From Solimonas sp. K1W22B-7 (GTDB lineage Bacteria; Pseudomonadota; Gammaproteobacteria; Nevskiales; Nevskiaceae): a stretch of 64,000 bases of DNA. Under the pieces are notes generated by a model. It was not told the DNA's origin, searched no databases, and saw nothing but the letters and a program-made list of their open reading frames with translations. The stretch covers positions 186,001 to 250,000 of the forward strand of contig NZ_CP031704.1 in NCBI RefSeq assembly GCF_003428335.1, written 5' to 3'. Both the position numbers and the translations under genes were made by a program. This document shows positions 11,931-36,135 of the stretch, in pieces (the stretch's first letter is position 1; each line of letters opens with the position of its first letter).

Positions 11931-14567
11931 ATGGCAAGCACTTCGTTCAACATATTTGACGAGTTGTCTTCTTGGCAGAAGGATTTGCCGGTCTGGCAGC
12001 AATGTCTATTGGCGAAGCTTGTTGCCACAAATGAACTTTCGAAGAACGATTTTGATCAAGTTTACAGAGAGCTCTTGATTGATTTTGGTTTGGTTTCGCA
12101 TGGTGGCGTTCGTAACGATTACGCACTAGTAGTGCCCCAGTTCAATAACACTCCCCTCGAAGAACGCGCTCACCTAGTCTTGATGCATGAGGTTTCGGGC
12201 GTCAATGCCCTGAAAGCAGGCCAGGCATTGACCTTTGGCCCGATGCTCACGGTTGTCTATGGTCCCAACGGCTCCGGTAAGTCGGGGTATGCCCGCGTTC
12301 TTAAAGCAGCATGCTTTACCAGATCGCGTGATACCGAAATATTGGGAGACGTCCGAATCAATCTTGTGGCGCAGCCCGAGCCAACTGCGAAGTTCAAGTT
12401 CGCTGATGGCACTGACGCCACATATATGCATAAACAGCCGTGCCCGAAGTTGCGCGACAACTTTGCTGTCTTTGACTCCACTTGCATAAGAGTGCATTTG
12501 GATGAGCGAAAGTCATTTCAGGTTATGCCTTACCTATTTGACGTATTCCCGCGTATGGTGGATGTCTTCAGCAAGCTTCAGGCGCAACTGAAGATCGACA
12601 TTGGCGCCAGGCTGCCAGTGGCAGACCGGTTCGCGATTGCTGGAAGTGAATCCACTGTGGGACAAGCCTTGAGGACGTTGAGTGCCAAAACTGACACTAC
12701 AGAACTCGATAAATTGGCCGTATTTGGAAATGCTGAGCTAGATCGCCTGGAACTGGTGTCAAAAAAGATACAGGAACTTCGCAGTGGAGATTCGAAGCAG
12801 ATCGTTCAACAGAATCGTCAGAAGATCGCCGATCTAGATGCGTTACGAGCGACGTTGATTGCACTATCCAATGCTATCGATTCAGATCTTGTGTCGAAGA
12901 TTGGGCAAGAGATACAGAAAGTACAGCACCTCAAGGAAAAGTCTGCGGCGCTCTCGGCTGCCCAGCTTGGAAATGAGCCGGTCCAACCAGTCGGGACTCA
13001 GTTCTGGCGTGAGCTTATCGCTGCCGCAGTTTCTTATAACAATGAAGCCTTTCCTGGCGATTCCTTCCCGCCGGCGTTGGAAATTATCCCGCGTTGCGTG
13101 CTGTGCCAACAAGAGCTGCAAAATGACGCATTCGATCGCTTGTCCCGGTTCTATCAGGTGGCGACAAGTGATGTGGAGAACCAGCTGAAGGGGGGTGAAC
13201 TAGAGCTCGATGTGCTGAGCGGAAGACTGCGGAAGACGAATACAGGGATTTTCAGTCCAGACAGCGCGGCGCGACGCGTGCTCAAGGATCTTGATGTCGC
13301 CTTAGAAGCAGACGTGGCCGCGCATGTTGCGCAGATCGAAGCCCTAAAAGGTGCCCTTGACGATTCCATAGCCAGCCTTTCACTTTCTTCGGCTACGCCC
13401 TCGATTGATTCTGTCTCGCAGCGGATTAAGGAGCTGAGTCAGCGCATCGGAATTGAAACTCTTAGTCTGATCCAAAAGGATCCGGAAACGCTCCTTGCGC
13501 CTCTGCTAGAGGAAAAGATTTTGCTGGAAGATCGAAGGATTCTTTCCGGTACGTACACGGATGTTGTAAATGCTGTAACGAGCTTCAAATGGGTGGACAT
13601 TGGAAGGGAACGGCTACGGACATTTGCGAGCATTCAACGGGAAGTCACGACAAAACAGACGGATCTTGCTAAGAGGCTCGTTGCACAAGGATTCGTCGAC
13701 AAATTTACGGAGAACTGCGAACTGCTTGAACTTCATCTGCCGGTAAAGTTTCGCTTCGCGGGAGATGCAGGCAAGACAGATCGTCAAATCGAAATAGTCA
13801 GCGCAAGTCGCGGCGATTTCGAGCCCTCAGACGTTTTGAGTGAGGGGGAGCAGACCGCTGCGGCATTGGCTGACTTCCTGACCGAAGTCGAGATCAATGG
13901 TAGCTGCTCGGGGGTTATCTTCGACGATCCGGTGACGTCAATGGATCACCTTCGAAAGGAGTCCATAGCCAAGCGCCTGGTTGGCGAGGCTTCCGCCCGC
14001 CAAGTCATCGTATTTACCCATGACATTCTATTCACAAGCTACCTGGCCGCAGCGGCTGCAGCCAAGGGAGTCAAGTTCACGGGGCACACCGTATGTAAGG
14101 GGGAAGAAGATGGTTCCGGATGTGTTGACGTTTTAGCATTCCCTCATGAGGAGTATGAGGGGGCGGCCTTCAACAGGGCGAAGATTCACCTGAATGAGGC
14201 TAATCTGCTCTCAGGGCATCCACAACGAGGTCATTTGGAGAAGGCGTGTGGCAATCTCCGCACGGCCTATGAAGATTTTATCCAGAAGAAGCTCTTTGGC
14301 AACGTCGTCCGACGCTGGCGGGAGAACATCACCTTTACCCTGAATCAGGTGTACTTCGATGAGGCGATCGCACTAAGGGTGCATGAGAAGATGGCGGTGC
14401 TGTCCCGCTTCATCGATGCACACTCACATAGTCTGGAGTATCAGCAGCTTCCGCTTTCAGCTGCTTTCGTAAGCGCCGAGATTGCGGAGTTCGAAAAAAT
14501 AAGGGGTGACTACACTAAGGCGAGAAAAATCTGGGAAAGCGCGAAGCCTAAAGGAGAATTTAACTAG
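11931..14567 (+). CDS. RloC/PrrC-like AAA_13 ATPase, candidate anticodon nuclease
   Basis: An 878-residue ABC/SMC-type ATPase. Walker A G-P-N-G-S-G-K-S (111-118), ABC signature L-S-E-G-E-Q (from 636), Walker B with F-D-D-P-V-T-S-M-D-H (about 664), and H-loop F-T-H-D (H697) are all present. The large insert between Walker A and the signature has coiled-coil character and one C-V-L-C (C389, C392), as in the Rad50-like zinc hook of RloC. After the ATPase comes a helical C-terminal domain with R794-x3-E798 and H831, matching in order and spacing the Arg-Glu-His triad that I recall for the anticodon nuclease PrrC; R826-x4-H831 also fits a HEPN RNase motif. RloC and PrrC cut tRNA anticodons upon phage infection. 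No type I restriction genes are adjacent. The gene is AT-rich compared with its neighbours. Confidence 0.78.
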   Translation: MASTSFNIFDELSSWQKDLPVWQQCLLAKLVATNELSKNDFDQVYRELLIDFGLVSHGGVRNDYALVVPQFNNTPLEERAHLVLMHEVSGVNALKAGQALTFGPMLTVVYGPNGSGKSGYARVLKAACFTRSRDTEILGDVRINLVAQPEPTAKFKFADGTDATYMHKQPCPKLRDNFAVFDSTCIRVHLDERKSFQVMPYLFDVFPRMVDVFSKLQAQLKIDIGARLPVADRFAIAGSESTVGQALRTLSAKTDTTELDKLAVFGNAELDRLELVSKKIQELRSGDSKQIVQQNRQKIADLDALRATLIALSNAIDSDLVSKIGQEIQKVQHLKEKSAALSAAQLGNEPVQPVGTQFWRELIAAAVSYNNEAFPGDSFPPALEIIPRCVLCQQELQNDAFDRLSRFYQVATSDVENQLKGGELELDVLSGRLRKTNTGIFSPDSAARRVLKDLDVALEADVAAHVAQIEALKGALDDSIASLSLSSATPSIDSVSQRIKELSQRIGIETLSLIQKDPETLLAPLLEEKILLEDRRILSGTYTDVVNAVTSFKWVDIGRERLRTFASIQREVTTKQTDLAKRLVAQGFVDKFTENCELLELHLPVKFRFAGDAGKTDRQIEIVSASRGDFEPSDVLSEGEQTAAALADFLTEVEINGSCSGVIFDDPVTSMDHLRKESIAKRLVGEASARQVIVFTHDILFTSYLAAAAAAKGVKFTGHTVCKGEEDGSGCVDVLAFPHEEYEGAAFNRAKIHLNEANLLSGHPQRGHLEKACGNLRTAYEDFIQKKLFGNVVRRWRENITFTLNQVYFDEAIALRVHEKMAVLSRFIDAHSHSLEYQQLPLSAAFVSAEIAEFEKIRGDYTKARKIWESAKPKGEFN

Positions 14568-14665: not shown

Positions 14666-15799
14666 TCAAGATACGAGTTCGTAGCTTGTGCTGCGTCCGC
14701 CCGCTCCTGACTTCTTTAAAACGCCCAACTCCACCAGACTCGAGATATCGCGCAACGCCGTATCCGTCGAGCACTTCGCGATCTTTGCCCACTTGCCGCT
14801 GGTGAGCTTGCCCTCGAATCCATCCAGCAGCTGATTCAGCAGCGTGATCTGTCGCTCGTTCATCGATATCGCGGCCCATCTCTGCCAGAACGTAGCCTTG
14901 GCCAAAACATCGGATAGCCCCGCCTCCGCGTGCTGGATCGCACGCAATAGGCAGGCAAGAAACCACTGCAGCCACTCGGTGATGTCGAGCGTGCCCTTCT
15001 GGGTGCGCTCCAGCAGTTCGTAGTAGGTCTTGCGTTCGCCCTGGATTTGGGCGGAGAGGCTGTAGAAGCGCTGCGAGGAGTTTTCCGCCCGCGCCAGGGC
15101 CAAGTCTCCCACCGCCCGCGCGACACGACCGTTGCCGTCTTCGAACGGATGGACCGTGACGAACCACAGATGCGCGATACCTGCACGAAGCAGGCGATCC
15201 TCCTGGGGGGTGTCGTCGAACCAGCGCAGGAAGGCGTTCATTTCCGCTGGCAGCCGGTCCGCCGGCGGCGCTTCGAAATGGACCTTCTCGCGGCCGACTC
15301 CGCCCGAAACGACTTGCATGGGGCCGTCATGATCATCCCGCCAAGCGCCGACCCGGATGGCCCGCATGCCGCTGTAGCCGGTCGGGAAGAGCGCCGCATG
15401 CCAGCCGCAGATGCGCTCCTGGGTCAGGGCGGCGCCGAAGTTTTGCGTCGCATCCAGCACCATGTCGACGACTCCATCGATGTGGCGATCGGCAGGCGCC
15501 AGGGCGCCGATATCGACACCCAGCCGCCGCGCCACCGAGGAGCGCACGGCATCGGGGCTCAGCCGGTCGCCTTCGATCTCGCTGGTCTTCAACACGTCCT
15601 CAGTGAAGGTGCGCAGCGTCGCCTCGTCGCGCTGTGCCATCCCCAGGTCGGTCATGCGGCCGGCGAGGTGTCCCTGGGCGTGATGAACCAGGGACAAAGG
15701 CTCCGCCAGGGCGGCGGCGTCGTAACGCCAGCGCGGCCATTCGCGGGATTGCCAGATATACCTATATTCACCGCCATTCATGCGGTGAATATAGGTCAT
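14666..15799 (-). CDS. Fic-family AMP-transferase with DUF4172 and winged helix
   Basis: A 377-residue class II Fic protein that transfers AMP (or another nucleotide) to a target protein. An N-terminal DUF4172-type region (Y-I-W-Q-S-R-E-W-P) carries the inhibitory helix motif T-S-E-I-E-G (72-77), matching [S/T]xxxE[G/N]. The active site H-P-F-E-D-G-N-G-R has H217. The C-terminus (K-W-A-K-I-A-K-C-S-T-D-T-A-L-R-D-I) is a winged-helix domain that could bind DNA. The start at 15799 has CAGGGA close upstream; a start at 15781 is possible. Either start falls in the 15761-15795 palindrome, which suggests autoregulation. It borders the AT-rich defence-like island and follows glmS on the same strand. 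Confidence 0.93.
   Translation of the reverse strand: MTYIHRMNGGEYRYIWQSREWPRWRYDAAALAEPLSLVHHAQGHLAGRMTDLGMAQRDEATLRTFTEDVLKTSEIEGDRLSPDAVRSSVARRLGVDIGALAPADRHIDGVVDMVLDATQNFGAALTQERICGWHAALFPTGYSGMRAIRVGAWRDDHDGPMQVVSGGVGREKVHFEAPPADRLPAEMNAFLRWFDDTPQEDRLLRAGIAHLWFVTVHPFEDGNGRVARAVGDLALARAENSSQRFYSLSAQIQGERKTYYELLERTQKGTLDITEWLQWFLACLLRAIQHAEAGLSDVLAKATFWQRWAAISMNERQITLLNQLLDGFEGKLTSGKWAKIAKCSTDTALRDISSLVELGVLKKSGAGGRSTSYELVS
15761..15795. promoter_or_regulatory. Palindrome over the fic start codon
   Basis: Perfect 14-bp arms CCTATATTCACCGC / GCGGTGAATATAGG with a 7-base loop. The palindrome covers codons 2-13 of the fic reading frame. It can act as a DNA operator or as an mRNA hairpin that hides the start. 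Confidence 0.8.
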
Positions 15800-15869: not shown

Positions 15870-17702
15870 TCACTCCACCGTCACCGACTTCGCCAGATTA
15901 CGCGGCCGGTCCACGTCCGTGCCGCGCACCAGCGCCACGTGGTAGGCCAGCAGCTGCAGCGCCACGGTGTAGCTCATCGGGGCCAGCAGTTCGTTCACCT
16001 CGGGCATGCAGATCACCTGCATGCCGGGGCCGTCTTCCATCGCGCAGGCGCGGTCGGCGAAGGCGTAGATGCGGCCGCCGCGGGCGGCCACCTCCTGCAG
16101 GTTGGACTCCAGCTTGTCGAGGCAGCCGCTGGCCGGCGCCAGCGCGATCACCGGCATGTGCTCGTCCACCAGGGCCAGCGGGCCGTGCTTGAGCTCGCCG
16201 GCGGCGTAGGCTTCGGCGTGGATATAGGAAATCTCCTTGAGCTTGAGCGCGCCTTCCTGGGCGATGGGATACATCGGCCCGCGGCCGATGAATAGCGCGT
16301 GGTTGTGGCGCGCGATCTGGCGCGCCAGCTTTTCGATCTGCGGCTCCAGGCGCAGCACCGCCTCCACCGCCACCGGTGCCTGCGCCAGATGCCGCAGGAT
16401 CGGCGCCTCGGCACTGGCGATGGGCCCGTTGCGGCGCGACAGCAGGGCGGTCAGCAGTAGCAATGCGGACAGCTGCGTGGTGAAGGCCTTGGTCGAGGCC
16501 ACGCCCAGCTCTGGCCCGGCACGGGTCAGCAGGCTGAGGCCGGCCTCGCGCACCAGTGAGCTCTCGGCGACGTTGCAGATCGCCAGCGTCGACAGGTAGC
16601 CGGACTCCTTGGCGTAGCGCAGCGCCGCCAGTGTGTCGGCAGTCTCGCCGGACTGCGACAGGCCCACGAACAGGCAGTTGCGCGGCACCGCCGGCAGGCG
16701 GTAGCGGAACTCGCTGGCCAGCTCGACGCTGCAGGGCAGGCCGGTCATGGCTTCCAGCCAGTAGCGCGCCACCAGGCCCGCATGATGGCTGGTGCCGCAG
16801 GCCACCAGGTGCACGGCGCGGATGCGTTCCACCAGGCCGCGCGCGCGAAAGCCCAGGCTGTCCTCCAGCACCGACTCGCCGGCGCTGCGGCCCTGCAGGC
16901 TGTCGGCCAGGGCGCGCGGCTGCTCGTGGATTTCCTTGTGCATGTAGTGGCGATAGGCGCCCTTGTCGACGTCCTCGCTGGACAAGGCCAGCTGCCGCTG
17001 CGGCCGCTCGACCGTCTCGCCATCGATGTCGCGGATGCGGATCTCGCCGCGACTCAGTTCGGCGATGTCGCCTTCCTCCAGGAATACGAAGCGGGCGGTC
17101 ACCGGCAGCAGGGCGGTCACGTCGGAGGCGACGTAGTGGCCGTCGTCGCCCACGCCGATCACCAGCGGGCTGCCGCGGCGCGTCACCACCAAGGTCTCAG
17201 GTTCCGACACCGCGACCACGGCGACGGCGTAGGCACCCCTGAGTTCGGCGGATGCGGCGCGCAAGGCGGCCGCCAGCGAGCGGCCGCCGCACATGTGACG
17301 ATGCAGCAAATGGGCGATGACCTCGGTGTCGGTGTCCGACAGGAACTCGTAGCCCGCCGCCTGCAGCTCGCGCCTGAGTTCGCGGAAGTTCTCGATGATG
17401 CCGTTGTGCACCACCGCGACCTCGCCGCGCGAGACATGCGGATGCGCGTTGCGCTCCGCCGGCTCGCCATGCGTGGCCCAGCGCGTATGGCCGATGCCCA
17501 GTCCGCCGTCGAAGCTGACGCCGCGCAGGCTGCGCGCCAGGTCGGCGACGCGGCCGACGCAGCGCTGCACCGAAACGCTGTCGCCGCCATCCAGCAGGGC
17601 GACGCCGGCGGAGTCATAGCCGCGGTATTCCAGGCGCTGTAGGGCATCCATCAATACCGGTACGACGTTGCGGTCCGCGACCGCGCCAACGAGTCCGCAC
17701 AT
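15870..17702 (-). CDS. glmS: Glutamine--fructose-6-phosphate aminotransferase
   Basis: A cytoplasmic enzyme making glucosamine-6-phosphate from fructose-6-phosphate and glutamine, the first step towards UDP-GlcNAc. At 610 residues it has normal length. The product begins M-C-G-L-V-G-A-V, so Cys2 is the nucleophile of the glutaminase domain (about 1-240), followed by two SIS domains (G-T-S-H-H-A-G-L, S-Q-S-G-E-T-A-D-T) and the usual C-terminus ending A-K-S-V-T-V-E. AGGAG precedes the start. It begins only 9 bases after the epimerase stop, so it is the last gene of the polysaccharide operon, where it would supply amino-sugar precursor. A second glmS elsewhere in the genome cannot be excluded. 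Confidence 0.97.
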   Translation of the reverse strand: MCGLVGAVADRNVVPVLMDALQRLEYRGYDSAGVALLDGGDSVSVQRCVGRVADLARSLRGVSFDGGLGIGHTRWATHGEPAERNAHPHVSRGEVAVVHNGIIENFRELRRELQAAGYEFLSDTDTEVIAHLLHRHMCGGRSLAAALRAASAELRGAYAVAVVAVSEPETLVVTRRGSPLVIGVGDDGHYVASDVTALLPVTARFVFLEEGDIAELSRGEIRIRDIDGETVERPQRQLALSSEDVDKGAYRHYMHKEIHEQPRALADSLQGRSAGESVLEDSLGFRARGLVERIRAVHLVACGTSHHAGLVARYWLEAMTGLPCSVELASEFRYRLPAVPRNCLFVGLSQSGETADTLAALRYAKESGYLSTLAICNVAESSLVREAGLSLLTRAGPELGVASTKAFTTQLSALLLLTALLSRRNGPIASAEAPILRHLAQAPVAVEAVLRLEPQIEKLARQIARHNHALFIGRGPMYPIAQEGALKLKEISYIHAEAYAAGELKHGPLALVDEHMPVIALAPASGCLDKLESNLQEVAARGGRIYAFADRACAMEDGPGMQVICMPEVNELLAPMSYTVALQLLAYHVALVRGTDVDRPRNLAKSVTVE

Positions 17703-17711
17703 GGTGATCTC

Positions 17712-18736
<1,025 letters not shown>

Positions 18737-18740
<4 letters not shown>

Positions 18741-19927
18741 AAAGCCTCCTTGCTCTTCACCGACTGCTGCTGCGGCGAGGACTCCGTGGTGAAGCGCTCG
18801 CGCAGCGCACCGAAAGCGCTGTCCAGGCGCGCCACGATCTGCTTGGGCAGCCGGGCGCCCTCCCAGTCGTTCTCGAAGCGCACACGGATCGGCAGGCCGT
18901 TGCTGATGCGGCCGTGCATGACCTCGCCATCGACGAAGCGCATGCGCACCAGCACGCCGACGGGGTTGCCGCCGAAAGGCTGGCTGTAGCCGGCAGGCAT
19001 CTCGCGCGCCACCTCCGGGACCGAGGCGACTTCGGCCTCGCGGCGGCTGCCGTCGGGAAACACCACCGTGCCGCGCTGGCCGGAGCGTGCGACCTCGGCG
19101 TACTTCGGCGGCACATAGGTGTCGATGTGCAGCTCGCCGCCGACCGGTGCCAGCATCGCCACCTTGCCGCCCAGCGCCAGCTGGTCGCCACTGACCACGG
19201 CCAGGTCGACGATGCGGCCGTCGCGCGGGGCACGCACCAGCTGGCCCTCCAGCTGTTCCTCCAGCTTGGCCTGCTCGGCGCGCAGCGACAGCACGCGGGT
19301 CCGCAGCTCGGTGTTGGGCACGCTCGGCGGCACGTGGTTCTGCACCGCCATGGTCTGGTACAGCTCGGAGATGCGCGACGAGGCCTGCTGTTCCTCGCGG
19401 CGCGCTGCGGAAAGCTCGGCCTCGGTGGCGGCGCCCTCGTCCACCAGCTGTTGCAGGGAATTCATGCGCTGGCTCTGGTAGCTCTTCTGCTCGCGCGCGA
19501 TCTCGATCTGGTCCTGCAGGTTCACGGTCGGCCCGCGCTCGGCGCTGATGCTGCTGGGAATGCCCTGCAGGGCCTTCAGCTCGGCACGGATCTGGCTGGC
19601 ACGCACCTCCAGTTCGGGGTTGTTGAGCCGCACCAACGGATCGCCCTCGGCGACCTCCTCGTAGGGTTTCACGTAGACCTCCTCGACGTAGCCCTGGCCC
19701 AGGGTGCGCACGGTGATCTGCTCCTGGGCGATCACGCCCGGGGCTTCCACTGCCACCGAGGCCCACAGGAACTTGCCGACGAAGTACAGCAGCGGGCTGC
19801 TGACCACCAGCAGGATCAGGTACCAGCGCCAGCGCGCGAGCTGCCGCTTGCCCGGTGCGTACGGCACCTGGATGCCGCGATCGCGGCTGGGGTCGCTCTG
19901 CTCCGGTTTAACGAATCTCACTTTCAT
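18737..19927 (-). CDS. HlyD-family membrane-fusion protein
   Basis: A 396-residue periplasmic adaptor: one N-terminal membrane helix (about 35-55), two lipoyl half-motifs (V-R-T-L-G-Q-G-Y-V near 80, and L-V-R-A-P-R-D-G-R-I-V near 230) around a coiled-coil hairpin (about 110-220), then a beta-barrel domain. Such adaptors link inner-membrane machines to TolC-type outer-membrane channels, and the upstream gene encodes exactly such a channel. No ABC transporter is present in the operon; the partner is the GT2 synthase. It overlaps the TolC-like gene by 20 bases and the epimerase by 4. Confidence 0.85.
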
Positions 19928-22340
19928 AACCCATCCTCATCAGGTCCGCCCATGCCTGCACGACGATGCCGTCGGCGTTGGCCTGCGCCTGCAGCAACTG
20001 CTGCAGGCGGCTCATCGACTTCTCGAAATCGGCGCGCGTGCGCTTCGCATGGCTTTCGGCCGCGTCCAGCTGCGGCTCCACGCTTTGCGCCACGCGGAAG
20101 CGCAGCTGCGGCGAGCCCGCCAGGATCGGCGTGGCGACGCTGGCGACGTTCTCCGGCTTCGAGTTGAAGATCATCAGCGTCACGTCCTTGACGCCGCCCT
20201 CGGCCAGGCGCTCGCCGAGCTTCCAGCCGCTGTAGGGCTCGTCGCGGAAGTAGCGCGGGTGAACGCTGATCGCGGTCGGCCAGGGTGAGGCCTTGGCCGC
20301 CGCCTGCATGCTCTTCACCCAGTTGTCGAACTGTTCGCGGCCGAGTGGCTGCCTGTAGACCTGGTCCGGCTCGATATCCAGGTGCAGACCGTCGAAGGGA
20401 AAGTCCCAGAGTCCCGAGATCAGTTCCACCAACTGCTCGCGGCCCTTGGGCTCGATCCAGCCCGCATCGCCCAGCAGCAGCTCCACCTTCACGCCGCGCT
20501 TGCGCGCGTTCTGCAGGAAGCCGCTCAGCGGCGCCGGACGGGCGCGGAACTCCCGGATCTGCGCCGCGTCCAGCGACACCAGCAGGCGGTCGATCGACAG
20601 GCGCTGCAGCAGCTTCCAGAAGCGGTCGCGGTTCTGCTGCTTGCCGATCAGGTCCTGGCTGTTCCAGACGTAGACCGCCATGTCGTCGCGACCGCGTGCG
20701 CTGCCGGCTTTCGGTGGCGGCGCCGGGGTAGCTGCGGCGGACGACCCGGCGGTGTTGTAGGCCACCGGCATCGCCGCCGCTGTGGGAATGGCCGCGCCGC
20801 CTTCCATCGTGCTGGCCATCTGGAAGCGTGCCGCGGGCCTGGGCTGCACTGGCTTGAGCCAGCGCGAGGCCTCGATGTTGGAGTCGGCCGTAGCGGAAGG
20901 CGGCAGGTCGGCGCGCAGTGGTACCGGTGTCGGCGCGGGAGCGGGCGCTGCGCTCCCGAGCTTGTCCGCAGCGGCCGGGCGCGGCGCCGGGCCGCTGCCG
21001 GCGAGCTGCCGCGTCACCAGTACGATCGGCTCGGCCAGGCGCTCACCGATGCCGGAGTCCGGCAGCAGCGCACGGCGCGGCGGTGCGGCGTCCTCGGCCA
21101 CCGCCAGGGCAAAAGCGCGAGCCTCGACGTTGGCGATCCAGCCGCGCGTGCGCGTATCGATCTCGGCCAGCGCCGCGGCGTAGTAGGACTGCAGCTTGCC
21201 TGCCAGGGTCTCGATGCCGTCCTCGGCGAACACGCCGCTGCGGCGCAGGCGCTCGCGCAGGGCCTCGTGCGCGCCGCGCGAGCGCTGCGCGGCAGCGGCG
21301 GTCTCTTCCCGCTGCTGCGCCAGCTTGTCGCGGGCGCCGCCGATGTCGGCCAGCAGTTCCTCCTGGCGCTGGCGGTAGCGCAGCTGCAGCGTCTCCAGCT
21401 CGGCGTTCAGGCGGTTGCGCTCGGCGCGGCGGGCGCTGCCCACGGCCAGCGGCGCGCTGAGGTTGACGCCGACGAAGGCATTGCCGCCGGTCTCGGAGTT
21501 GGTGGTGTCATGCACGGTATTGGCATTGACGTTGAAGGCGCCATCGAGCCCGTACCAGCGGCTGTCCTTCTGCTGGCGCTGCAGCGTCTCGCGCTGCGCC
21601 TGCAGCGATACCAGGTCCGGGTGGCGCTGCAGCGCGTCGCCGGCCGGCATGGTTACGTCCTCCGGCAGTTCGGTGGCGCGGGCCTGCAGTTCGCCGAGCT
21701 TGCGCCCGGTAAGCCGCTCCAGGCGGGCGCGGGCGGCGTTGCGCGTCGCCACCAGCTGGGCACGGTCGCTGCGCGCGCGGGCAAAGCCGGCGCCGCTGTC
21801 GATCATCTGCGAGCCCAGCATCATCCGCTTGTCCTGGCGCTGCTGCAGGCGCGGCAGCAACTGCGCTTCGCTCTCCAGGTAGGCGTCGACCAGCTTGAGG
21901 CTCTCCTGCGCTCCCCAGTAGCGTGCGTACTGCGCTTCCAGTTCGAGCTGCGCCAGGCGCCGTGCGGCTTCCAGGCGCACTTTCTTTTCCTGGGTCTTGC
22001 CGCTGGACAGGCCGATGGCGCGGGCCTGCTTCTCGGCCGAGCCGAACAGCGGGTAGCTCAGGCCGAGCTGCGCCTGTGCTGCCTGGTAGGAGATCGAGCG
22101 GCCTTCATCGACCACGTCCTGGATGTGGCCGTAGCCGGCGGCACCGGTGACGCGCCAGCCCTTCTCGGCACGGTCGCGGTCCAACTCGCTGCCGGCGGCC
22201 TTGAGTTCCGACTCCGCCTGCAGCACGCCGGCGGCATGGCCGGTGTCGCCCAGCAGGTTCTCGAGCAGCAGTTCCTCGGCCAGCGCCGGCCCCGCCGCCA
22301 GCACTCCGAGCAAGCTGAGGGTTTGCAGCAGGCGTTTCAT
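19908..22340 (-). CDS. TolC-like outer-membrane factor fused to a GH18-like domain
   Basis: An 810-residue fusion. After a signal peptide (M-K-R-L-L-Q-T-L... A-L-A-E-E), residues 25-460 are a long alpha-helical region with the heptad pattern of TolC-type export channels, though the second TolC repeat is poorly marked. A Pro/Ala-rich linker follows (about 470-550). Residues 554-805 begin A-V-Y-V-W-N-S-Q-D-L and contain D-F-P-F-D-G-L-H-L-D-I-E (D650 to E657), the D-G-x-x-x-D-x-E pattern of GH18 glycosidase barrels. An export channel carrying its own polysaccharide-active domain is unusual. The start has GGAGG 6 bases upstream and overlaps the GT2 stop by ATGA. Whether the barrel is catalytic is unknown. 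Confidence 0.8.
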   Translation of the reverse strand: MKRLLQTLSLLGVLAAGPALAEELLLENLLGDTGHAAGVLQAESELKAAGSELDRDRAEKGWRVTGAAGYGHIQDVVDEGRSISYQAAQAQLGLSYPLFGSAEKQARAIGLSSGKTQEKKVRLEAARRLAQLELEAQYARYWGAQESLKLVDAYLESEAQLLPRLQQRQDKRMMLGSQMIDSGAGFARARSDRAQLVATRNAARARLERLTGRKLGELQARATELPEDVTMPAGDALQRHPDLVSLQAQRETLQRQQKDSRWYGLDGAFNVNANTVHDTTNSETGGNAFVGVNLSAPLAVGSARRAERNRLNAELETLQLRYRQRQEELLADIGGARDKLAQQREETAAAAQRSRGAHEALRERLRRSGVFAEDGIETLAGKLQSYYAAALAEIDTRTRGWIANVEARAFALAVAEDAAPPRRALLPDSGIGERLAEPIVLVTRQLAGSGPAPRPAAADKLGSAAPAPAPTPVPLRADLPPSATADSNIEASRWLKPVQPRPAARFQMASTMEGGAAIPTAAAMPVAYNTAGSSAAATPAPPPKAGSARGRDDMAVYVWNSQDLIGKQQNRDRFWKLLQRLSIDRLLVSLDAAQIREFRARPAPLSGFLQNARKRGVKVELLLGDAGWIEPKGREQLVELISGLWDFPFDGLHLDIEPDQVYRQPLGREQFDNWVKSMQAAAKASPWPTAISVHPRYFRDEPYSGWKLGERLAEGGVKDVTLMIFNSKPENVASVATPILAGSPQLRFRVAQSVEPQLDAAESHAKRTRADFEKSMSRLQQLLQAQANADGIVVQAWADLMRMGYESEIR

Positions 22341-23671
22341 CGCGGGCCTCCTTGTCGGATGACCCACCACGGACCCATGGGCGAGTCCTGGTGAGCGCGG
22401 TTGAACCATTCGTGGAATGTGGCGATCACGCTCCAGACGCGGGCCGACACCATGAACAGCGGCATCAGCGGCAGCACCCAGAAGTAGCGCGCATCCTGCG
22501 CGGGGCGTTCCGACAGCAGCGCCAGGAACAGCAGGAACTGCAGCACGGTGATCGTCAGGTAGAAGACATAGATCAGCAGCATCGTGCCGATGAAGAACGG
22601 TGCCGGCTGGAACAGCAGCATCCAGGCGAGGAAGCCCACCTGCAGGATCGGCAGGAAGATCTGGAACAGCAGTCCGTACCAGGTGCTGCCGATGAAGTTG
22701 CGCCAGCCGATCATCGGCGAGAAGGCCTGCCAGTGCTTGCGGAAATAGATGTAGGACAGGTCGCCGTCCCAGCGCAGGCGCTGCTTGTAGAAGGCGGCGA
22801 AGGTGTCGGGCACCTCGGTATGCGCAACCGCGCCGGGCGCGAACACCAGCTTCAGTTCCGGGTGGCGCTTGAGGTACTGCTTGACGCGCAGCGTCAGGTC
22901 CAGGTCCTCGCCGGTGCCGGTGTTCCAGCCGCCGACGTGATCCAGGATCGACTTGCGGTAGATCATGAAGGCGCCGGGCAGGTTGTTGATCAGGTTCCAC
23001 TCGGCCAGGCCGACCTTGCCCAGGTAGATCGCCAGCATGTATTCCACGGCCTGGAAGCGCGTGATCATCGACTTCTGGCCGTTGCGTGCGCGCAGCGGGC
23101 CGGTGGCGGCGACCACATGGGGATCGGCAAAGGGCTTGATCGCCTGCGCCACCATTTCGTTGTCGAAGGAGGTGTCGGCGTCCAGCGCCATCACGATCTC
23201 GCCGGTGGCATAGAGCAGGCCGGTGTTGGTGGCCGAGACTCGGCCGCCGCGCTGCGGCTTGGGGATGAAGCGCACCGAGCGGTTGGCGCCACCGCCGAAC
23301 TGCGGCATCAGTTCCTTGATCGCGTCATAGGTCGCACGGTTGGCCACGGCACCGTCGAGCACGAGCAGCAGTTCGATGTGCCCGGGATAGATCTGCTCCA
23401 GCAGCGAGCGGATCGAATACTGCACGTCGCGACCCTCGGCGTAGGCGTTGCAGATGCAGGTGACGCGCGGGTAGTAGGGAATCTCCGCCGGCGGATGCGT
23501 GTGGCGGCGCCACAGGTAGTGCATGACGCCCAGCCAGGTCAGCAGATACAGCGGCATTTCCAGCAGCAGCGCGAAGGGTGCGAACTTCAGCACCAGTGCC
23601 TCGGCGCTGCCGCTGACCATCGCCAGGAAGACGGCGAAGCCGGACACCAGGTTGACGAAGATGCTGTCCAT
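22337..23671 (-). CDS. Membrane GT2 polysaccharide synthase
   Basis: A 444-residue processive family-2 glycosyltransferase of the cellulose/hyaluronan/PgaC type at the inner membrane. Two N-terminal helices are followed by the cytosolic GT-A domain with L-D-G-A near 105, D-A-D (164-166), G-E-D-L-D (254-258) and Q-R-L-R-W (297-301), which are the D, DxD, (T/G)ED and Q(R/Q)xRW motifs of processive synthases. Four or so C-terminal helices would form the translocation pore. No PilZ domain is present, unlike BcsA. It is the probable core of the operon, making a beta-linked polymer that leaves through the HlyD/TolC-like pair. Confidence 0.93.
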   Translation of the reverse strand: MDSIFVNLVSGFAVFLAMVSGSAEALVLKFAPFALLLEMPLYLLTWLGVMHYLWRRHTHPPAEIPYYPRVTCICNAYAEGRDVQYSIRSLLEQIYPGHIELLLVLDGAVANRATYDAIKELMPQFGGGANRSVRFIPKPQRGGRVSATNTGLLYATGEIVMALDADTSFDNEMVAQAIKPFADPHVVAATGPLRARNGQKSMITRFQAVEYMLAIYLGKVGLAEWNLINNLPGAFMIYRKSILDHVGGWNTGTGEDLDLTLRVKQYLKRHPELKLVFAPGAVAHTEVPDTFAAFYKQRLRWDGDLSYIYFRKHWQAFSPMIGWRNFIGSTWYGLLFQIFLPILQVGFLAWMLLFQPAPFFIGTMLLIYVFYLTITVLQFLLFLALLSERPAQDARYFWVLPLMPLFMVSARVWSVIATFHEWFNRAHQDSPMGPWWVIRQGGPR

Positions 23672-23672
23672 G

Positions 23673-25178
23673 TCAGGCCGCCCGCGCCCTGGCTGGCCGC
23701 TGCCATTGCTGCTCCAGCGCTTCCAGCAGCGATGCCGCGTTCGTCCCGTCGGCGGTGGTCGCCATCACCTTCGCAAGCTGCCAGGACGGGCCGATGCCCT
23801 CCGGCTGCACGGCGCGCTGCTGCAACTGGCCGACCGCTTCATGCAGCTGTGCGAGGCGGTCGCGGTCGGCGCCGGGCAGCAGCAGGCACAGGGTCTCGGC
23901 GTCCAGGCGTGTCGCGAGGTCCGACTCGATCAGCAGTTCGCGCAGGCGTTCGGCGAAAGCATCCACCAGCTGCGATGCGCGTCCGGCGCCCAACTGCTCC
24001 GCCAGCGTGACGGCATTGCCCAGGCGCAGGCCCAGCAGGGCCAGGCGCGTGCCGCCCTGGCTGCGACCGATCTTCAGCAGCCAGTCCAGGCTGTGGCTGA
24101 AGTGCTCGCGGCTGGCGTAGTGCTGGGCGTCGAACAGCGCGGGCGACTGCGCCGGGTTGCGGCCCTGGGCCACCAGGCAGCCGCGGCTGCTCAGGCGCCA
24201 GGACCAGAGCTTGTGCAGGCGCAATGCGGTGGGGGCCATCGAGTGGTCGCAGACCGCGCAGCGCGCCACGACTTCGCCCTCGACGAAGACGTGCTCGCAG
24301 CTGCGGCAGGAGGTCGTCTCCAGAGGGCGGTCGTAGTCGCTGCCGATGTGCCGCAGATGCGTGCCGCACTTGGGGCAGCAGCGGCCGCCGCCGCGGGTGA
24401 AGCGGTCCTCCGGGGCGATCAGGCCGCAGGTGAAGCAATGCAGGGCGGCGTGCTGGTCGATGTCGATCGAGCGGCAGCTGGGGCAGACGTCGATGAAGCT
24501 CAGGTGCGCGCTGCCGCAGAAATCGCATTCGCGCTGGCGCGCCCGCAGTTCCCCGCGGGTCAGCAGGCCATCGCGCTCCAGCTGCTGCAGCCAGCCCTGC
24601 GGATCGGTATCGCCGCGCTCCAGTACGTCGAGCAGGGGGTAGTGATGCAGCCGCGGATGACGCCAGTCGGCGCGCGGCTCCAGCGTCGCGCCCGGGCGCA
24701 GCCACAGGTATTCCAGCAGCAGGGCCGCCGGGCTGCGGTCGTCGTCCTTGTCGCGCATCGCCTGCGCGCGGGCGACGCTGGCGTCGATGCGCTCCAGCAA
24801 TTCCGGGACGGTGGCCGGCAGCGGGCCGTCGCCGACCGGCGCATCGGCCTCCCCGACCGAGCCTTCGACGAAGGCCAGGCGCGCGGCATGATCGGGGTCG
24901 CGGCGGATCTGGCGCAGCCACTCGCCGGTGGCGGCGGGATCGGTGCTGCGCACGATGAAAGCGGCGGGCTTCAGGCCCGATTCGCGGAAGCCGCGATAGT
25001 CGCTGAAGCAGTGCGCGACCCGCCCGGCCAGCAGCAACCGCCCGCTGTCCGGCGTGCGCGGGGCGAAGATCACGATGTCGTTGCTGGTCACGGGCAGCCT
25101 CTCCTGTTCCATGGACCCGGTCACGGGACCGGTGCCGATCGCCCATCCTTGGGCTGAGGTATCAGGGGCAACGGTCAT
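23673..25178 (-). CDS. Zinc-ribbon protein with degenerate GGDEF domain
   Basis: About 501 residues; the first gene of the polysaccharide operon. The N-terminal third looks like a receiver-related or small alpha/beta domain (N-D-I-V-I-F-A-P-R-T). Then come six Cys pairs: C-D-F-C, C-P-S-C, C-F-T-C, C-P-K-C, C-R-S-C and C-A-V-C, enough for three zinc ribbons; the layout recalls the TackOD1 output domain. The C-terminal 150 residues follow the fold of a GGDEF domain, but the signature is replaced by R-L-D-A-E-T-L, so cyclic-di-GMP synthesis is not expected. The start is uncertain (25178 or 25112), with no strong ribosome binding site at either. It ends one base before the GT2 start. It probably senses or regulates the synthase. 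Confidence 0.72.
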   Translation of the reverse strand: MTVAPDTSAQGWAIGTGPVTGSMEQERLPVTSNDIVIFAPRTPDSGRLLLAGRVAHCFSDYRGFRESGLKPAAFIVRSTDPAATGEWLRQIRRDPDHAARLAFVEGSVGEADAPVGDGPLPATVPELLERIDASVARAQAMRDKDDDRSPAALLLEYLWLRPGATLEPRADWRHPRLHHYPLLDVLERGDTDPQGWLQQLERDGLLTRGELRARQRECDFCGSAHLSFIDVCPSCRSIDIDQHAALHCFTCGLIAPEDRFTRGGGRCCPKCGTHLRHIGSDYDRPLETTSCRSCEHVFVEGEVVARCAVCDHSMAPTALRLHKLWSWRLSSRGCLVAQGRNPAQSPALFDAQHYASREHFSHSLDWLLKIGRSQGGTRLALLGLRLGNAVTLAEQLGAGRASQLVDAFAERLRELLIESDLATRLDAETLCLLLPGADRDRLAQLHEAVGQLQQRAVQPEGIGPSWQLAKVMATTADGTNAASLLEALEQQWQRPARARAA

Positions 25179-25498
25179 GCCAGCCATGCGCCACGGCTTG
25201 GCAAACAAGGACTTGCAAGGGTCGAGCGCCCGGCCGTGCGGAAGAGCGGCCACCGCGGCAGGGGGAAAGCGTCGCCGAACTCCGACAGGCTTCGCCGTGC
25301 CCACGGCACAACTGCCGCTGCGTGCGGGGTTTCAGGGGAATTCCCGCGCGTCTGCGAACGGCGACGCATGGATGAACGGCGAATGAACGGCGGGCCGGCA
25401 TGCCAGGGAACTGTTGCCCGGCGGCGCCAGTCACAGGTCCGCGGCGCAAGGATGCGCCGCGAGCGACACCTGCTTTCCAAGGACCGGATTCCACGCCG

Positions 25499-26941
25499 AT
25501 GCGCCCGCCGCTGCCCCGAACCATGACCGTGCTGGTGACGACCGGCTGTGTGCTCGTGTCGCTGCCGCTGCTGCTGGCCCTGGTGCTGGCGGACCTGGCG
25601 CTGCAGCGGCACGCGCGCCAGGCCGATCGCCTGATGCAGGAGAGCATGGCGCTGGCGCTGCTGGGCAGCGACCTGCGCGACAATCTCAGCCAGCTGGAGC
25701 GCAACGCGCGGCAGTACGTTGCGCTCGGCGAACCGGCATTGCTGGATCTGTTCGCCAGCCGCCTGAAGGACATCGATACCACCCTGGACCGGCTCGAGCG
25801 GCAGCAACTGCGGCGCGACGGCGGCGAACGCCTCGGCGTGTCGCTGGCCAGGTTGCGCCAGGGCCTGGCCGAGGTGTCGCAGGCCTGGTCGCGCAGCCTC
25901 AGCGCCGACGCGCCGCTGGCCGAGGTCGTCACGCGGCTGCACTCGTTGTCCTTCGACATCGATCCGGTCGTGGCCGAGGCCAGGTACCTGGCCGACCAGC
26001 GCATCGGGCAACTGCGCCACGATGCGGTGAGTGCGCGGCGCACGATGCTGTTGCTGGCGCTGGCCCTGGTACCGCTGACGGCGCTGCTGGCGGTGTGCTT
26101 CTCGATCGCCGTTTCCCGTCCGCTCAAGCGCATGGCCCAGGGCGTCGCGGAACTCGGCCACTCGCGCTACCAGCAGCCGATCGCGGTGGGTTTTCCGCAG
26201 GAACTGCAGGAACTGGCCGAGCGCCTCGACTGGCTGCGCCTGCGCCTGGCGCAGCTGGCGGCCGACAAGGATCGTTTCCTGCGGCATGTGTCGCATGAAC
26301 TCAAGACCCCGCTGGCCAGCCTCGGCGAAGGCGCGGCGCTGCTGCGCGAAGGCTCGCTGGGCGAACTCAGCCAGAGCCAGACCGAGGTGGCGCAGATCCT
26401 CATCGAGTCTTCCGCCGATCTCGAAGTGCTGATCGACAACCTGCTGGCCTACTCCGCCTGGCGCAACGACCGGGTCGATGCCTCGATGGAATGGTTCGAT
26501 ACCGCGCCGCTGCTGGCCGAGGTGCTGGCGGCGCACCGCCTGCCGCTGGCGCGGCGCGCGCTCGACGCAGCCGTCGAAGTGTCGTCACCAAGACTCTACG
26601 GACAGCGCGCGCAGCTGCGCACGGCACTGGACAACCTCATGACCAATGCGATCAAGCATGCCCCGGAGGGCAGCACGATCGATATCGCGGCCGGCATGAA
26701 TGCCGGCCGCTGCGAACTACAGGTGCGCGATCGCGGCCGGGGTGTGCTCGATGAAGAAAAGCAAAAGATCTTTGAACCGTTCGTACGCGGCGGCGAGTCG
26801 GAGGAATCCGGCATTCGCGGTACCGGTGTGGGGCTGTCGATCGTGCGCGAGACCGCGCAGGCGCACAGCGGCAGCGTGGAGGTGGCGGATGCCGGGCCTG
26901 GCGCGCGCTTCAGCATGGTCTGGCCTGCTCCTGCTGCTTAG
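25499..26941 (+). CDS. glrK: Sensor histidine kinase GlrK/QseE-like
   Basis: A 480-residue inner-membrane kinase. A first helix (about 9-30), a periplasmic helical sensor domain, a second helix (about 180-205) and a HAMP segment lead to the H-box H-V-S-H-E-L-K-T-P-L, then the N-box N-L-M-T-N-A-I-K-H and G-x-G boxes D-R-G-R-G and G-T-G-V-G-L-S. The gene order kinase, small lipoprotein, sigma-54 response regulator is that of glrK-qseG-glrR (qseEGF), which in enterobacteria responds to envelope signals. The ATG at 25499 is used; M-T-V-L at 25523 is an alternative. Its 3' end overlaps the lipoprotein gene by 53 bases. The 320 bases upstream of it (25179-25498) hold the divergent promoters but nothing I can pick out. 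Confidence 0.92.
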   Translation: MRPPLPRTMTVLVTTGCVLVSLPLLLALVLADLALQRHARQADRLMQESMALALLGSDLRDNLSQLERNARQYVALGEPALLDLFASRLKDIDTTLDRLERQQLRRDGGERLGVSLARLRQGLAEVSQAWSRSLSADAPLAEVVTRLHSLSFDIDPVVAEARYLADQRIGQLRHDAVSARRTMLLLALALVPLTALLAVCFSIAVSRPLKRMAQGVAELGHSRYQQPIAVGFPQELQELAERLDWLRLRLAQLAADKDRFLRHVSHELKTPLASLGEGAALLREGSLGELSQSQTEVAQILIESSADLEVLIDNLLAYSAWRNDRVDASMEWFDTAPLLAEVLAAHRLPLARRALDAAVEVSSPRLYGQRAQLRTALDNLMTNAIKHAPEGSTIDIAAGMNAGRCELQVRDRGRGVLDEEKQKIFEPFVRGGESEESGIRGTGVGLSIVRETAQAHSGSVEVADAGPGARFSMVWPAPAA

Positions 26942-27343
26942 CCTGGCCGGCTGCGCCAGCGTGGAGCCGATGTCCTGGCGCCTGCCGATCGGCGGGCCCG
27001 GCCCCGAGCCGGTGGAATTCCTGGCGCAGGCCCTGGCCGCGAGCCCGCCGCAGCGCGAGGCCATGTGGCAGGACCTGCGCAGCGACGATCCCGGCACCGA
27101 GCAGAAGCTGCGTGTCGCGCTGATGCAGAGCGTGCCGGATCACTCCGGCTACAACCGCGGCTCGGCGCAGAGGCGCCTGCGCAAGCTGCTGTCGCAGTCG
27201 CTGACCGGCGGCCAGCGCGCCGCCGCCAGCGTGCGCCTGCACGAACTGGACAGTGCCACCCAGTGCCAGGTCGAGGTGCAGGACCTGCGCCAGCGCATGG
27301 CCGCGGTGGTCGATATCGAGCGCCGTCTCGGGAAGGGGCGCTG

Positions 27344-27344
<1 letters not shown>
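26889..27344 (+). CDS. qseG: QseG-like outer-membrane lipoprotein
   Basis: A 151-residue lipoprotein: M-P-G-L-A-R-A-S-A-W-S-G then a hydrophobic run ending L-S-L-A-G-C (lipobox). The mature part is helical and charged. GGAGG at 26878-26882 selects this start, which lies inside the 3' end of the kinase gene. Its stop overlaps the next start (TGATG). QseG in enterobacteria binds and modulates the QseE/GlrK kinase from the periplasm, and position and size fit that job here; sequence similarity is not obvious by eye. Confidence 0.75.
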
Positions 27345-28705
<1,361 letters not shown>

Positions 28706-28717
<12 letters not shown>

Positions 28718-33692: not shown

Positions 33693-35138
33693 TCAGGCGG
33701 CCTGGGCCGTCGGAGGCCCCGCCTCGGCGCGCTGCAGGCTGCAGCGCTGCAGTTCCTCCAGGAACGATTCGCGCCAGGCATCGGCATCGTCGCGCAGCAG
33801 GCCGCGCATCAGCTCGGCGTGGCGCTGGCGGCGTTCCTCCAGCGGCATGTAGCGCGCGGTCTGCAGTGCATCGGCCACCGCGGTGTTGTCGTAGGGGTTC
33901 ACGATCAGCGCCGCCTGCATCTGCTGCGCCGAGCCGGCGAAGCGCGACAGCACCAGTACGCCAGGGTCGGCTGGATTCTGCGCGGCGACGTACTCCTTTG
34001 CGACCAGGTTCATGCCGTCGCGCAGCGGCGTCACCAGGCCGATCTGGCTGGCGCGGTAGATGCCGGCCAGCTGGCGGCGTCCCAGCGGGCGATTGATGTA
34101 GCGGATCGGCTCCCAGTCGAGCTGGGCGTAGCGGCCGTTGATGTTGCCGGCGATCTGCTCCAGCTCGCGGCGGATCGCCATGTACTCCGGCACCTCGCCG
34201 CGACTGGTGGGTGCGATCTGCAGCAACTCCACCTGGCCATGCGTATCCGGGTAGCGGTCCAGCAGGCATTCCATCGAGCGGAAGCGCTCGGGAATGCCCT
34301 TGGTGTAGTCGAGGCGGTCGACGCCCACGATCACCGTGCGGTCCTTGCGGTTCTCGCGCACGCGCTGGAACTCCAGGCGCGCTGCCGGCGATTCCGCCAC
34401 CTTTGCGAACTCGCGCGCGTCGATGCCGATCGGGAAGGCGCGCGCGGTCAGCGTGCGGCCGAAGGCGGTGATGCTGTTGCCGCGCAACTGGCCTCCGAAC
34501 TCGCGGCAGACGCAGTCGCGGAAGCGCTGCACGTCGGCCTCGGTCTGGAAGCCCAGCAGGTCGTAGGAGAACAGGCTGCGCATCAGCTCGCGGTGGTGCG
34601 GCAGCGCGGTCAGCATCTCCGGCACCGGGAAGGGAATGTGCAGGAAGAAGCCGATCGGCTGGCTGGCACGCTGTTCGCGCAGCGCCTCGGCGAAGGGCAG
34701 CAGGTGATAGTCGTGCACCCAGACCTGGTCGCCCTCCTGCAGCATCGGGTGGAGCGCATAAGCCAGGCGCCGGTTGACGCGCTGGTAACCCTCGTAGTGA
34801 CGCGGATCGAAGGTCGTCAGGTCCAGCCGCAGGTGAAACAGCGGCCACAGGCATCGGTTGGCGAAGCCGTTGTAATAGTCCTCATGCTCGCTGGAGCTCA
34901 GGTCCACCGTTACCAGGCGGATTTCGCCGGCCACGGTTTCGGTGGCGCGTCCGTCCGGACGCTCGGCGATCTGTCCGCTCCAGCCGAACCACAGGCCGCC
35001 ACGCTCACGCAGTGCGTCGAGCAGCGCGACGGCCAGACCGCCGCCGCGGGCGGCGCCGCGCGGATGCACCACGCGATTGGACACCGCCACCAGACGCGGC
35101 CGCGGGCGCGTCGTCGAGCGTGGCAGCGCCGGGCTCAT
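33693..35138 (-). CDS. otsA: Trehalose-6-phosphate synthase
   Basis: A 481-residue GT20 enzyme making trehalose-6-phosphate from UDP-glucose and glucose-6-phosphate in the cytoplasm. It has S-N-R-V near residue 20, W-V-H-D-Y-H-L-L, F-L-H-I-P-F-P, G-V-D-R-L-D-Y-T-K-G-I and T-P-L-R-D-G-M-N-L-V-A-K-E-Y, all family hallmarks. Its start overlaps the otsB stop by ATGA. The pair gives osmoprotection and fits the stress theme of the region. Confidence 0.97.
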   Translation of the reverse strand: MSPALPRSTTRPRPRLVAVSNRVVHPRGAARGGGLAVALLDALRERGGLWFGWSGQIAERPDGRATETVAGEIRLVTVDLSSSEHEDYYNGFANRCLWPLFHLRLDLTTFDPRHYEGYQRVNRRLAYALHPMLQEGDQVWVHDYHLLPFAEALREQRASQPIGFFLHIPFPVPEMLTALPHHRELMRSLFSYDLLGFQTEADVQRFRDCVCREFGGQLRGNSITAFGRTLTARAFPIGIDAREFAKVAESPAARLEFQRVRENRKDRTVIVGVDRLDYTKGIPERFRSMECLLDRYPDTHGQVELLQIAPTSRGEVPEYMAIRRELEQIAGNINGRYAQLDWEPIRYINRPLGRRQLAGIYRASQIGLVTPLRDGMNLVAKEYVAAQNPADPGVLVLSRFAGSAQQMQAALIVNPYDNTAVADALQTARYMPLEERRQRHAELMRGLLRDDADAWRESFLEELQRCSLQRAEAGPPTAQAA

Positions 35139-36001
35139 GCGAAATCCCGCAAGCCGGCTCCGGCGGCAAGCCAGCCGTGAACCTCCGGGACACTGCCGAG
35201 CCGGTAGTGCGCGACACTGGGGCCCGCGCCGACCTTGATGCCGTAGCCGCCCATGGCCTGGGCCACCAGGATGCCGTTCTCGTCGGTGAGATCATCGCCG
35301 ACGAACACCGGCCTGCGTCCGGCGAAGGGCGGCAGGGTCATCAGGGCCTGCACCGCCTGGCCCTTGTTGACCTCCGGCGGCAGCACCTCGATCACCATCT
35401 TGCCCTGCGTGGCGGACAGGCCCATCGCGGATGCCAGTGCGGCCGCCACGGCCTCGCATTCGGCGGCGCGCTCCGGCGCGAGGCGGAAATGCACGGCGAC
35501 CGCCATGCCCTTGTCCTCGATGACAATGCGCGGATCGTCGGAAAAATAGCGGCGCAGCGCCTCGGGCAGGTCGCCCGAACCGGCGGTGGCCGTGGTCTCG
35601 ATGCTGCCGCGCAGGTCGCGCCGCAGTTCGGCACCATGCAGGCCGGCGCCGGCCAGGCGCAGCGGGTACAGCAGGCGGTCCAGCGTCTGGATCTGGCGCC
35701 CGCTGACGATCGCCAGGGCGCCGCCGAGACGGCGGTGCAGAGCGGTCAGCAGGACGGGCAGATAAGGCGCCACCTTCACCGCTTCCGGCCGCGACGCCAG
35801 TTCCAGCAGGCTGCCGTCGAGATCGTGGAACAGTGCGATGTCTTCGCCCAGCGCTGGCGGCAGCGACACATCCGGGCGAGCCATGGCGCTCATCACGGGC
35901 ATGAACCCGCTGGGCCGGGCGGCACGTCCCTGTGCCTGGCCCCGGCCCCCTGCGCCACCGGCATCCTGCCGGCGCATCCGCTCGCTGGTGAAGAAATCCA
36001 T
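35135..36001 (-). CDS. otsB: Trehalose-6-phosphate phosphatase
   Basis: A HAD-type phosphatase that removes phosphate from trehalose-6-phosphate. It has H-D-L-D-G-S-L (here the first motif reads F-H-D-L-D-G), S-G-R, E-D-K-G, K-G-Q-A-V and G-D-D-L-T-D-E. The start at 36001 has AAAAGG upstream and gives 288 residues with a low-complexity N-terminus; 35902, 35893 and 35884 are alternatives that would give the usual 250 residues. It is the first gene of an otsBA operon, preceded by the 104-bp palindrome at 36019. Confidence 0.93.
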   Translation of the reverse strand: MDFFTSERMRRQDAGGAGGRGQAQGRAARPSGFMPVMSAMARPDVSLPPALGEDIALFHDLDGSLLELASRPEAVKVAPYLPVLLTALHRRLGGALAIVSGRQIQTLDRLLYPLRLAGAGLHGAELRRDLRGSIETTATAGSGDLPEALRRYFSDDPRIVIEDKGMAVAVHFRLAPERAAECEAVAAALASAMGLSATQGKMVIEVLPPEVNKGQAVQALMTLPPFAGRRPVFVGDDLTDENGILVAQAMGGYGIKVGAGPSVAHYRLGSVPEVHGWLAAGAGLRDFA

Positions 36002-36018
36002 TGCTCGCCTTTTGTGTA

Positions 36019-36122: not shown

Positions 36123-36135
36123 CCGTTTTTCGTCC

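Follow-up and report, generated by a model that had tools for sequence, protein, structure and literature searches.

A candidate synthase-dependent polysaccharide operon with a TolC–glycosidase fusion and a TackOD1 regulator in Solimonas sp. K1W22B-7

We analyzed a 64,000-nucleotide stretch of the Solimonas sp. K1W22B-7 chromosome (the window; positions 186001–250000 of the 5.37 Mb single-contig genome) that contains a putative polysaccharide synthesis and export operon. Six minus-strand genes lie end to end from 25091 to 15870 and encode, in order, a regulator with a zinc ribbon, a glycosyltransferase family 2 (GT2) synthase, a fusion of TolC to a glycosidase-like domain, an HlyD-type adaptor, an epimerase, and GlmS (Table 1). 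The initial annotation had described six genes that overlap or nearly touch, and this arrangement was confirmed at about the same coordinates. The regulator and GT2 genes are separated by 1 nt, the GT2 and TolC–glycosidase genes share an ATGA, the latter overlaps hlyD by 20 nt, hlyD and the epimerase gene again share an ATGA, and 9 nt precede glmS. The most likely start of the regulator is GTG 25091, not ATG 25178, judging from its ribosome-binding site and a start that is kept in Solimonas fluminis. This nearest named relative carries the same genes in the same order (91% identity for GT2, 85% for HlyD, 87% for GlmS). Because the block also recurs in other genomes, the operon is more than a chance arrangement.

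The operon is one lineage's version of a wider conserved module. TackOD1, the zinc-ribbon family of the regulator, exceeded its cut-off in 3 of 41 near relatives, in 17 of 370 genomes from the class, and in 16 of 397 from the phylum, sets that overlap and together hold 32 such genomes. Beside the window, 31 loci were picked by TackOD1 alone, a set that does not include G173 and G194 (fragmentary or interrupted by a stop); 30 of them, including one with broken frames (L044), have GT2 and HlyD genes next to the regulator. The exception, L047 (9414–10763, minus strand), is a lone TackOD1–GGDEF gene without GT2 or HlyD, the second TackOD1 gene of a genome that has the full module (L043) elsewhere. 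Nine of 17 plasmid records with a regulator match were also taken; these stand outside the 31-locus count because they were chosen mostly by GT2 score. In each of the 39 fetched loci the module genes share a strand, and three orders occur: regulator–GT2–TolC/glycosidase–HlyD, glycosidase protein–HlyD–regulator–GT2, and regulator–GT2–HlyD. Regulator, GT2, and HlyD are thus the constant part, and TolC, glycosidase, epimerase, and GlmS are optional. Pairwise distances among the three constant proteins correlate (r 0.868, 0.891, and 0.890 over 37 rows), with none of 2000 permutations reaching such values. The GT2 tree has two deep branches, on which the labels TolC, glycosidase-only, and neither are clustered, each requiring more than one change. 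The module is also mobile, since a complete regulator–GT2–TolC/glycosidase–HlyD set (L016, 4563–10385) resides on a 29 kb mobilizable Aeromonas caviae plasmid. Clustering of neighbors revealed no further recurrent partner except generic regulators, ATP-binding cassette (ABC) proteins, and one three-locus cluster.

Neither of two single anchors delimited the family: a profile scan of genome contigs with the TolC–glycosidase fusion matched only S. fluminis, and GT2 matched 434 plasmid records, mostly of other GT2 types. The window synthase carries DxD, xED, and QxxRW motifs and five hydrophobic segments, and a Pfam search at an E-value of 0.001 found no PilZ domain on its 444 residues. Its best NCBIfam match is PgaC, at 112 bits against a cut-off of 422.3, followed by the XrtG-associated GT2 and NodC. 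The usual partners of such synthases had been reported absent. For BcsB and PgaC this is true of the whole genome, which gave no BcsB match (the same search was positive in Escherichia coli and Bacillus subtilis controls) and no PgaC above cut-off; for PgaA, PgaB, Pel, Alg, and Wza/Wzx/Wzy it extends to the operon genes, among which none was seen, no genome-wide search for them having been made.

The TolC–glycosidase protein begins with a signal-peptide-like leader and contains a TolC domain (Pfam OEP, 63.6 bits). The TolC profile gave a match in the window and in 7 of the 39 fetched loci, the fusion occurs in 8 loci including the window, and the glycosidase-like domain is present in the window and 17 fetched loci. 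One fusion (L035, 10932–13442, plus strand) has an additional N-terminal AMIN domain. In the clade with the order glycosidase protein–HlyD–regulator–GT2, the region before the glycosidase-like domain is not recognizably TolC; four such clade-B N-terminal regions gave no Pfam match, and the hhalign probability was 3%. Within the glycosidase-like domain, W19, W88, D115, E117, and M183 are invariant and H113 is at least 90% conserved among 17 sequences, and the resulting H-x-D-x-E is consistent with a catalytic acid. The earlier label of GH18 has to be reduced to a distant resemblance, because the domain matched no Pfam family at cut-off, GH18 included, and only remote profile matches to the PDB were found. 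A 17-sequence profile matched a Cellulomonas fimi hydrolase (8e-12) and, weakly, a fungal chitinase (0.0036), while a 15-sequence profile matched the C. fimi hydrolase alone (1e-5); the GH18 motif DxxDxDxE is missing, and the window domain reads HxDxE. The C-termini of TolC proteins face the periplasm, and the glycosidase-like domain should therefore be periplasmic, as are the hydrolases of other synthase-dependent systems.

The HlyD adaptor has one N-terminal transmembrane segment and a hairpin tip bearing GAAT; no related solved structure was found at 0.01. Tips of the form GA[AVI][ST] occur in 7 of 7 rows whose operon encodes TolC versus 2 of 33 others, a comparison from which the L003 adaptor was left out through the choice of open reading frame (ORF). 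One of the two exceptions, found in L012, belongs to an annotated efflux pump that has a separate outer-membrane subunit of its own. The claim that GT2, HlyD, and TolC come without an ABC transporter was borne out. None of the six operon genes encodes an ABC, resistance-nodulation-division (RND), or major facilitator superfamily (MFS) pump, with RND and MFS pumps not scanned across relatives. ABC-ATPase-like ORFs occur in 3 of the 39 stretches (L010, L059, and L061) and never inside the module, the nearest being an exporter-type gene in L059, 2.5 kb from the module on the opposite strand.

The regulator combines an N-terminal region of unknown fold, TackOD1 (205.4 bits against a cut-off of 32), and a degenerate GGDEF domain. 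An alignment of 27 sequences showed nine invariant TackOD1 cysteines and one that is nearly invariant. Both halves of the initial description, a zinc ribbon and a GGDEF-like domain, hold, the second at a weak but real 31.7 bits against 23.8 in Pfam and with the GGDEF motif itself gone. GG[DE]EF is kept in none of 37 family regulators, and this part of the protein cannot function as an ordinary diguanylate cyclase; the name 'diguanylate cyclase' that RefSeq-style annotation gives to TackOD1 regulators is probably wrong. At the I-site position, RxxD is kept in 30 of the 37 regulators and lost in seven, namely the window and S. fluminis copies plus five more, a count that leaves out L014, L039, and L044 (split frames) and whose column may be non-homologous in four lineages without a recognized GGDEF domain. 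Read from this motif, the TackOD1 regulator of most relatives is a candidate cyclic di-GMP (c-di-GMP) receptor, and we infer c-di-GMP control of the module in those relatives.

A housekeeping glmS lies beside glmU and atpD in the same genome, so the operon glmS is an extra copy. Of the 41 genomes examined from the order, all three with the module (G000, G001, and G012, which are also the three with TackOD1) carry a second full GlmS and none of the 38 without it does, an association expected by chance once in 10660. Five of the 41 genomes have no GlmS over cut-off, these genomes being fragmentary or incomplete at that point. G000 and G001 belong to one genus, and in the GT2 tree the G012 module falls in the opposite deep branch; the module and GlmS were therefore paired at least twice independently. 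The epimerase is most similar in the PDB to 6wjb (267.7 bits) and 6wj9, the former being PelX, a C4-epimerase converting UDP-N-acetylglucosamine (UDP-GlcNAc) to UDP-N-acetylgalactosamine (UDP-GalNAc). In G012, the genes directly after the module (L008, regulator–GT2–HlyD, with an additional GlmS nearby) encode TviB (676.7 bits against a cut-off of 592) and a TviC-like protein (496 of 760 bits) at 3786–6239 on the minus strand. Such a pair would give UDP-N-acetylgalactosaminuronic acid, making a pump-free polymer of that sugar possible at L008. Amino-sugar supply by the operon is well supported, and the product initially proposed from GlmS and the epimerase gains from both the confinement of the second GlmS to module genomes among these 41 and the PelX-like character of the epimerase.

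Upstream of the operon, the element TGGCATGACCGTTGC shows one mismatch to the −24/−12 consensus, and the S. fluminis copy shows none; in both Solimonas genomes it stands before the operon within otherwise poorly conserved DNA. Divergent from the operon in both genomes are a sensor kinase (81% identical to its S. fluminis counterpart, which occupies the corresponding position), a small lipoprotein-like ORF (75%), and a sigma-54-activating response regulator (89%). Control of the operon by sigma-54 would fit this arrangement, and that the kinase and response regulator drive it is a guess. GlrR-type control through TGTC-N10-GACA sites was dropped, as 23 matches were found against 17.95 expected and the site before the operon is not kept in S. 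fluminis.

Table 1. Operon genes and associated features, with coordinates as window positions.
Feature	Coordinates	Strand	Basis
Regulator, 472 aa	23673..25091	-	Pfam TackOD1 + GGDEF; GTG start shared by S. fluminis
GT2 polysaccharide synthase, 444 aa	22337..23671	-	Pfam GT2 families; motifs; hydropathy
TolC–glycosidase fusion, 810 aa	19908..22340	-	Pfam OEP; ATG start; TolC part ~20721-22340
C-terminal glycosidase-like domain, motif LHLDIE	19911..20720	-	Conserved residues; PDB profile matches
HlyD-type periplasmic adaptor	18737..19927	-	Pfam HlyD_3 30.6 bits; tip; hydropathy
UDP-sugar C4-epimerase, PelX-like	17712..18740	-	Best PDB matches 6wjb, 6wj9
GlmS, second full copy in genome	15870..17702	-	TIGR01135 809.5 bits
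Sigma-54-like promoter element TGGCATGACCGTTGC	25168..25182	-	~80 nt before GTG start
Divergent sensor histidine kinase, possible transcriptional controller	25400..26941	+	HAMP, HisKA, HATPase_c
Small ORF, lipoprotein-like leader, start uncertain	26700..27344	+	Translation; between kinase and response regulator
Sigma-54-activating response regulator, GlrR-like	27341..28717	+	Pfam + NCBIfam; GlrR score 565 vs cut-off 763 bits

Parts of this design have counterparts in known systems. PelX is the closest solved relative of the operon epimerase, and the Pel synthase is the GT4 protein PelF, a family that the window operon lacks. The Vi capsule, which is exported by an ABC transporter, uses TviB and TviC, whose counterparts follow the module in L008 and are not found in the window. 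The initial annotation regarded the layout as unprecedented, a view that does not survive comparison with two systems that already embody the GT2–HlyD idea. A tripartite XcsA/XcsB/TolC route for cellulose secretion was proposed for Thermosynechococcus (Maeda et al. 2018, as cited in the review PMC12430437, which calls the model unvalidated). As described there, XcsAB-TolC shares with the window a GT2, an HlyD-like adaptor, a TolC-like channel, and the lack of an ABC transporter; its associated glycoside hydrolase, an endoglucanase, may have a counterpart in the glycosidase-like domain of the window. XcsAB-TolC differs in having PilZ on the synthase, a cellulose product, and scattered genes (PMC12430437), whereas the window has a single operon, a TolC–hydrolase fusion, no PilZ, a TackOD1 regulator, and amino-sugar genes. 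BgsBA, the rhizobial mixed-linkage β-glucan system, likewise places a GT2 and an HlyD-like partner adjacently in one operon (PMC9495663), and c-di-GMP control would be a further likeness if our inference for the module is correct. In BgsBA, c-di-GMP binds the synthase's own C-terminus, and the accessible portion of that article mentions neither TolC nor TackOD1 nor genes for amino sugars. At L061 (10955–14367, minus strand), a PilZ-bearing GT2 and a second HlyD lie directly upstream of the module on the same strand, giving two GT2–HlyD pairs in a row, the added pair resembling the XcsAB/BgsBA kind. The closest parallel to the regulator lies in PelD (Pel) and BcsE (cellulose), in which a dead GGDEF domain with an RxxD I-site acts as a c-di-GMP receptor governing the synthase (PMC8461298). 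The family regulators resemble these in their degenerate GGDEF domain and mostly kept RxxD, and differ in being joined to TackOD1 and, in the window and S. fluminis, in lacking RxxD. What is new is the combination of a TolC–hydrolase fusion, a TackOD1 regulator, and amino-sugar genes in one operon; the GT2–HlyD principle was already known. No such combination was found in a literature search by titles and the openings of abstracts, with most subscription papers outside its scope.

With moderate confidence, we interpret the operon as a synthase-dependent exopolysaccharide system of tripartite build that would export an amino-sugar (UDP-GalNAc-derived) polymer through an HlyD–TolC conduit. GlmS would raise glucosamine-6-phosphate and hence UDP-GlcNAc, which the PelX-like epimerase would convert to UDP-GalNAc. 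The inner-membrane GT2 would polymerize the amino sugar and thread the chain outward, with the HlyD adaptor joining it to the TolC domain to form one conduit through both the periplasm and the outer membrane; at the periplasmic C-terminal end of TolC, the glycosidase-like domain may trim or clear chains. The regulator would switch the synthase from the cytoplasm and, in most relatives, is a candidate c-di-GMP receptor built like PelD and BcsE. In Solimonas, where RxxD is lost, control has probably shifted to sigma-54 transcription. Judging from its genes, the polymer is probably of the GalNAc type; our preferred assignment is galacto-configured, and in Nevskiaceae an amino-sugar polymer.

Several observations weigh against this interpretation. 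Only the window, S. fluminis, and G012 carry GlmS at the locus, and the specificity of the epimerase for UDP-GlcNAc is read from overall similarity. The epimerase at L009, on a Rhodobacteraceae plasmid, is a true, plain GalE, and the sugar may thus vary between lineages. In most relatives the module lacks TolC and the adaptor tip lacks GAAT, so that direct support for the TolC route is confined to a minority. Some adaptor tips from loci without TolC nevertheless end in S or T, and the tip pattern follows clades; given these looser forms, the tip test is soft, supporting and not decisive. The distance correlations stem partly from shared ancestry. As to regulation, the I-site arginine is missing from the window and S. 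fluminis copies, the −24/−12 pattern is not enriched across the window (74 found against 88 expected), and no such element was seen upstream of the module loci outside Solimonas, for which reason it was rejected as a family trait.

The most serious alternative, which we nevertheless consider unlikely, is an exporter of a poly-N-acetylglucosamine (PNAG)- or chitin-like polymer or another glucan, in which GT2 would polymerize GlcNAc or glucose and the epimerase would serve other surface glycans. The ranking of PgaC, the XrtG-associated GT2, and NodC as best matches favors it, as do the lack of epimerase or GlmS at most module loci and the PilZ-GT2/HlyD pair at L061, which hints at kinship with glucan synthases. 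However, the PgaC cut-off of 422 bits is far out of reach, the genome has no BcsB, the PelX-like epimerase gene overlaps hlyD, and an epimerase of the TviC type is found again at L008. That the glycan stays in the periplasm or bound to the envelope instead of being exported seems improbable: most loci have no outer-membrane partner in the module (the TolC profile matches 7 of 39 fetched loci) and one clade has an N-terminal region not recognized as TolC, but the window operon itself encodes a TolC with a signal-peptide-like leader, and in adaptor systems TolC is usually supplied by the host. Just as improbable is an ordinary efflux or type I secretion pair with its pump encoded elsewhere and a GT2 that only glycosylates an envelope component, for although HlyD and TolC families usually partner ABC, RND, or MFS pumps and L059 has its exporter-type ABC gene nearby, GT2 and HlyD remain neighbors in 30 of 31 TackOD1 loci, including those that lack TolC, their distances correlate, and ABC-like ORFs are both rare and never inside the module.

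Other genes in the window include a Fic protein with DUF4172 directly downstream of glmS (14666–15799, minus strand; PADLOC SoFic, 135 bits) and, near it, an AAA_13-type ATPase matching the PADLOC candidate defense family PDC-S06 (11931–14567, plus strand; 399 bits). A GH92 family protein is adjacent to a melibiase-like protein (2165–6909, plus strand), and the genes for trehalose-6-phosphate synthase and phosphatase overlap by a few bases (33693–36280, minus strand).

Beyond the export of an amino-sugar polymer by the Solimonas operon, we propose tentatively, with somewhat less than even confidence, that the module represents a distinct class of synthase-dependent secretion that is widespread in Pseudomonadota. 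In such a class, the synthase would act as the pump of an HlyD–TolC conduit under a c-di-GMP switch of TackOD1 and a dead GGDEF domain, with the hydrolase optionally carried on the channel; the Nevskiaceae version would make a galactosamine-type polymer with its own GlmS and would have passed to control by sigma-54 once the c-di-GMP site was lost. The switch would be the first bacterial role for TackOD1, a domain whose function was still described as obscure in 2018. If correct, the operon would provide a testable one-operon example of a sugar synthase feeding directly into an HlyD–TolC conduit and would offer a function for TackOD1.

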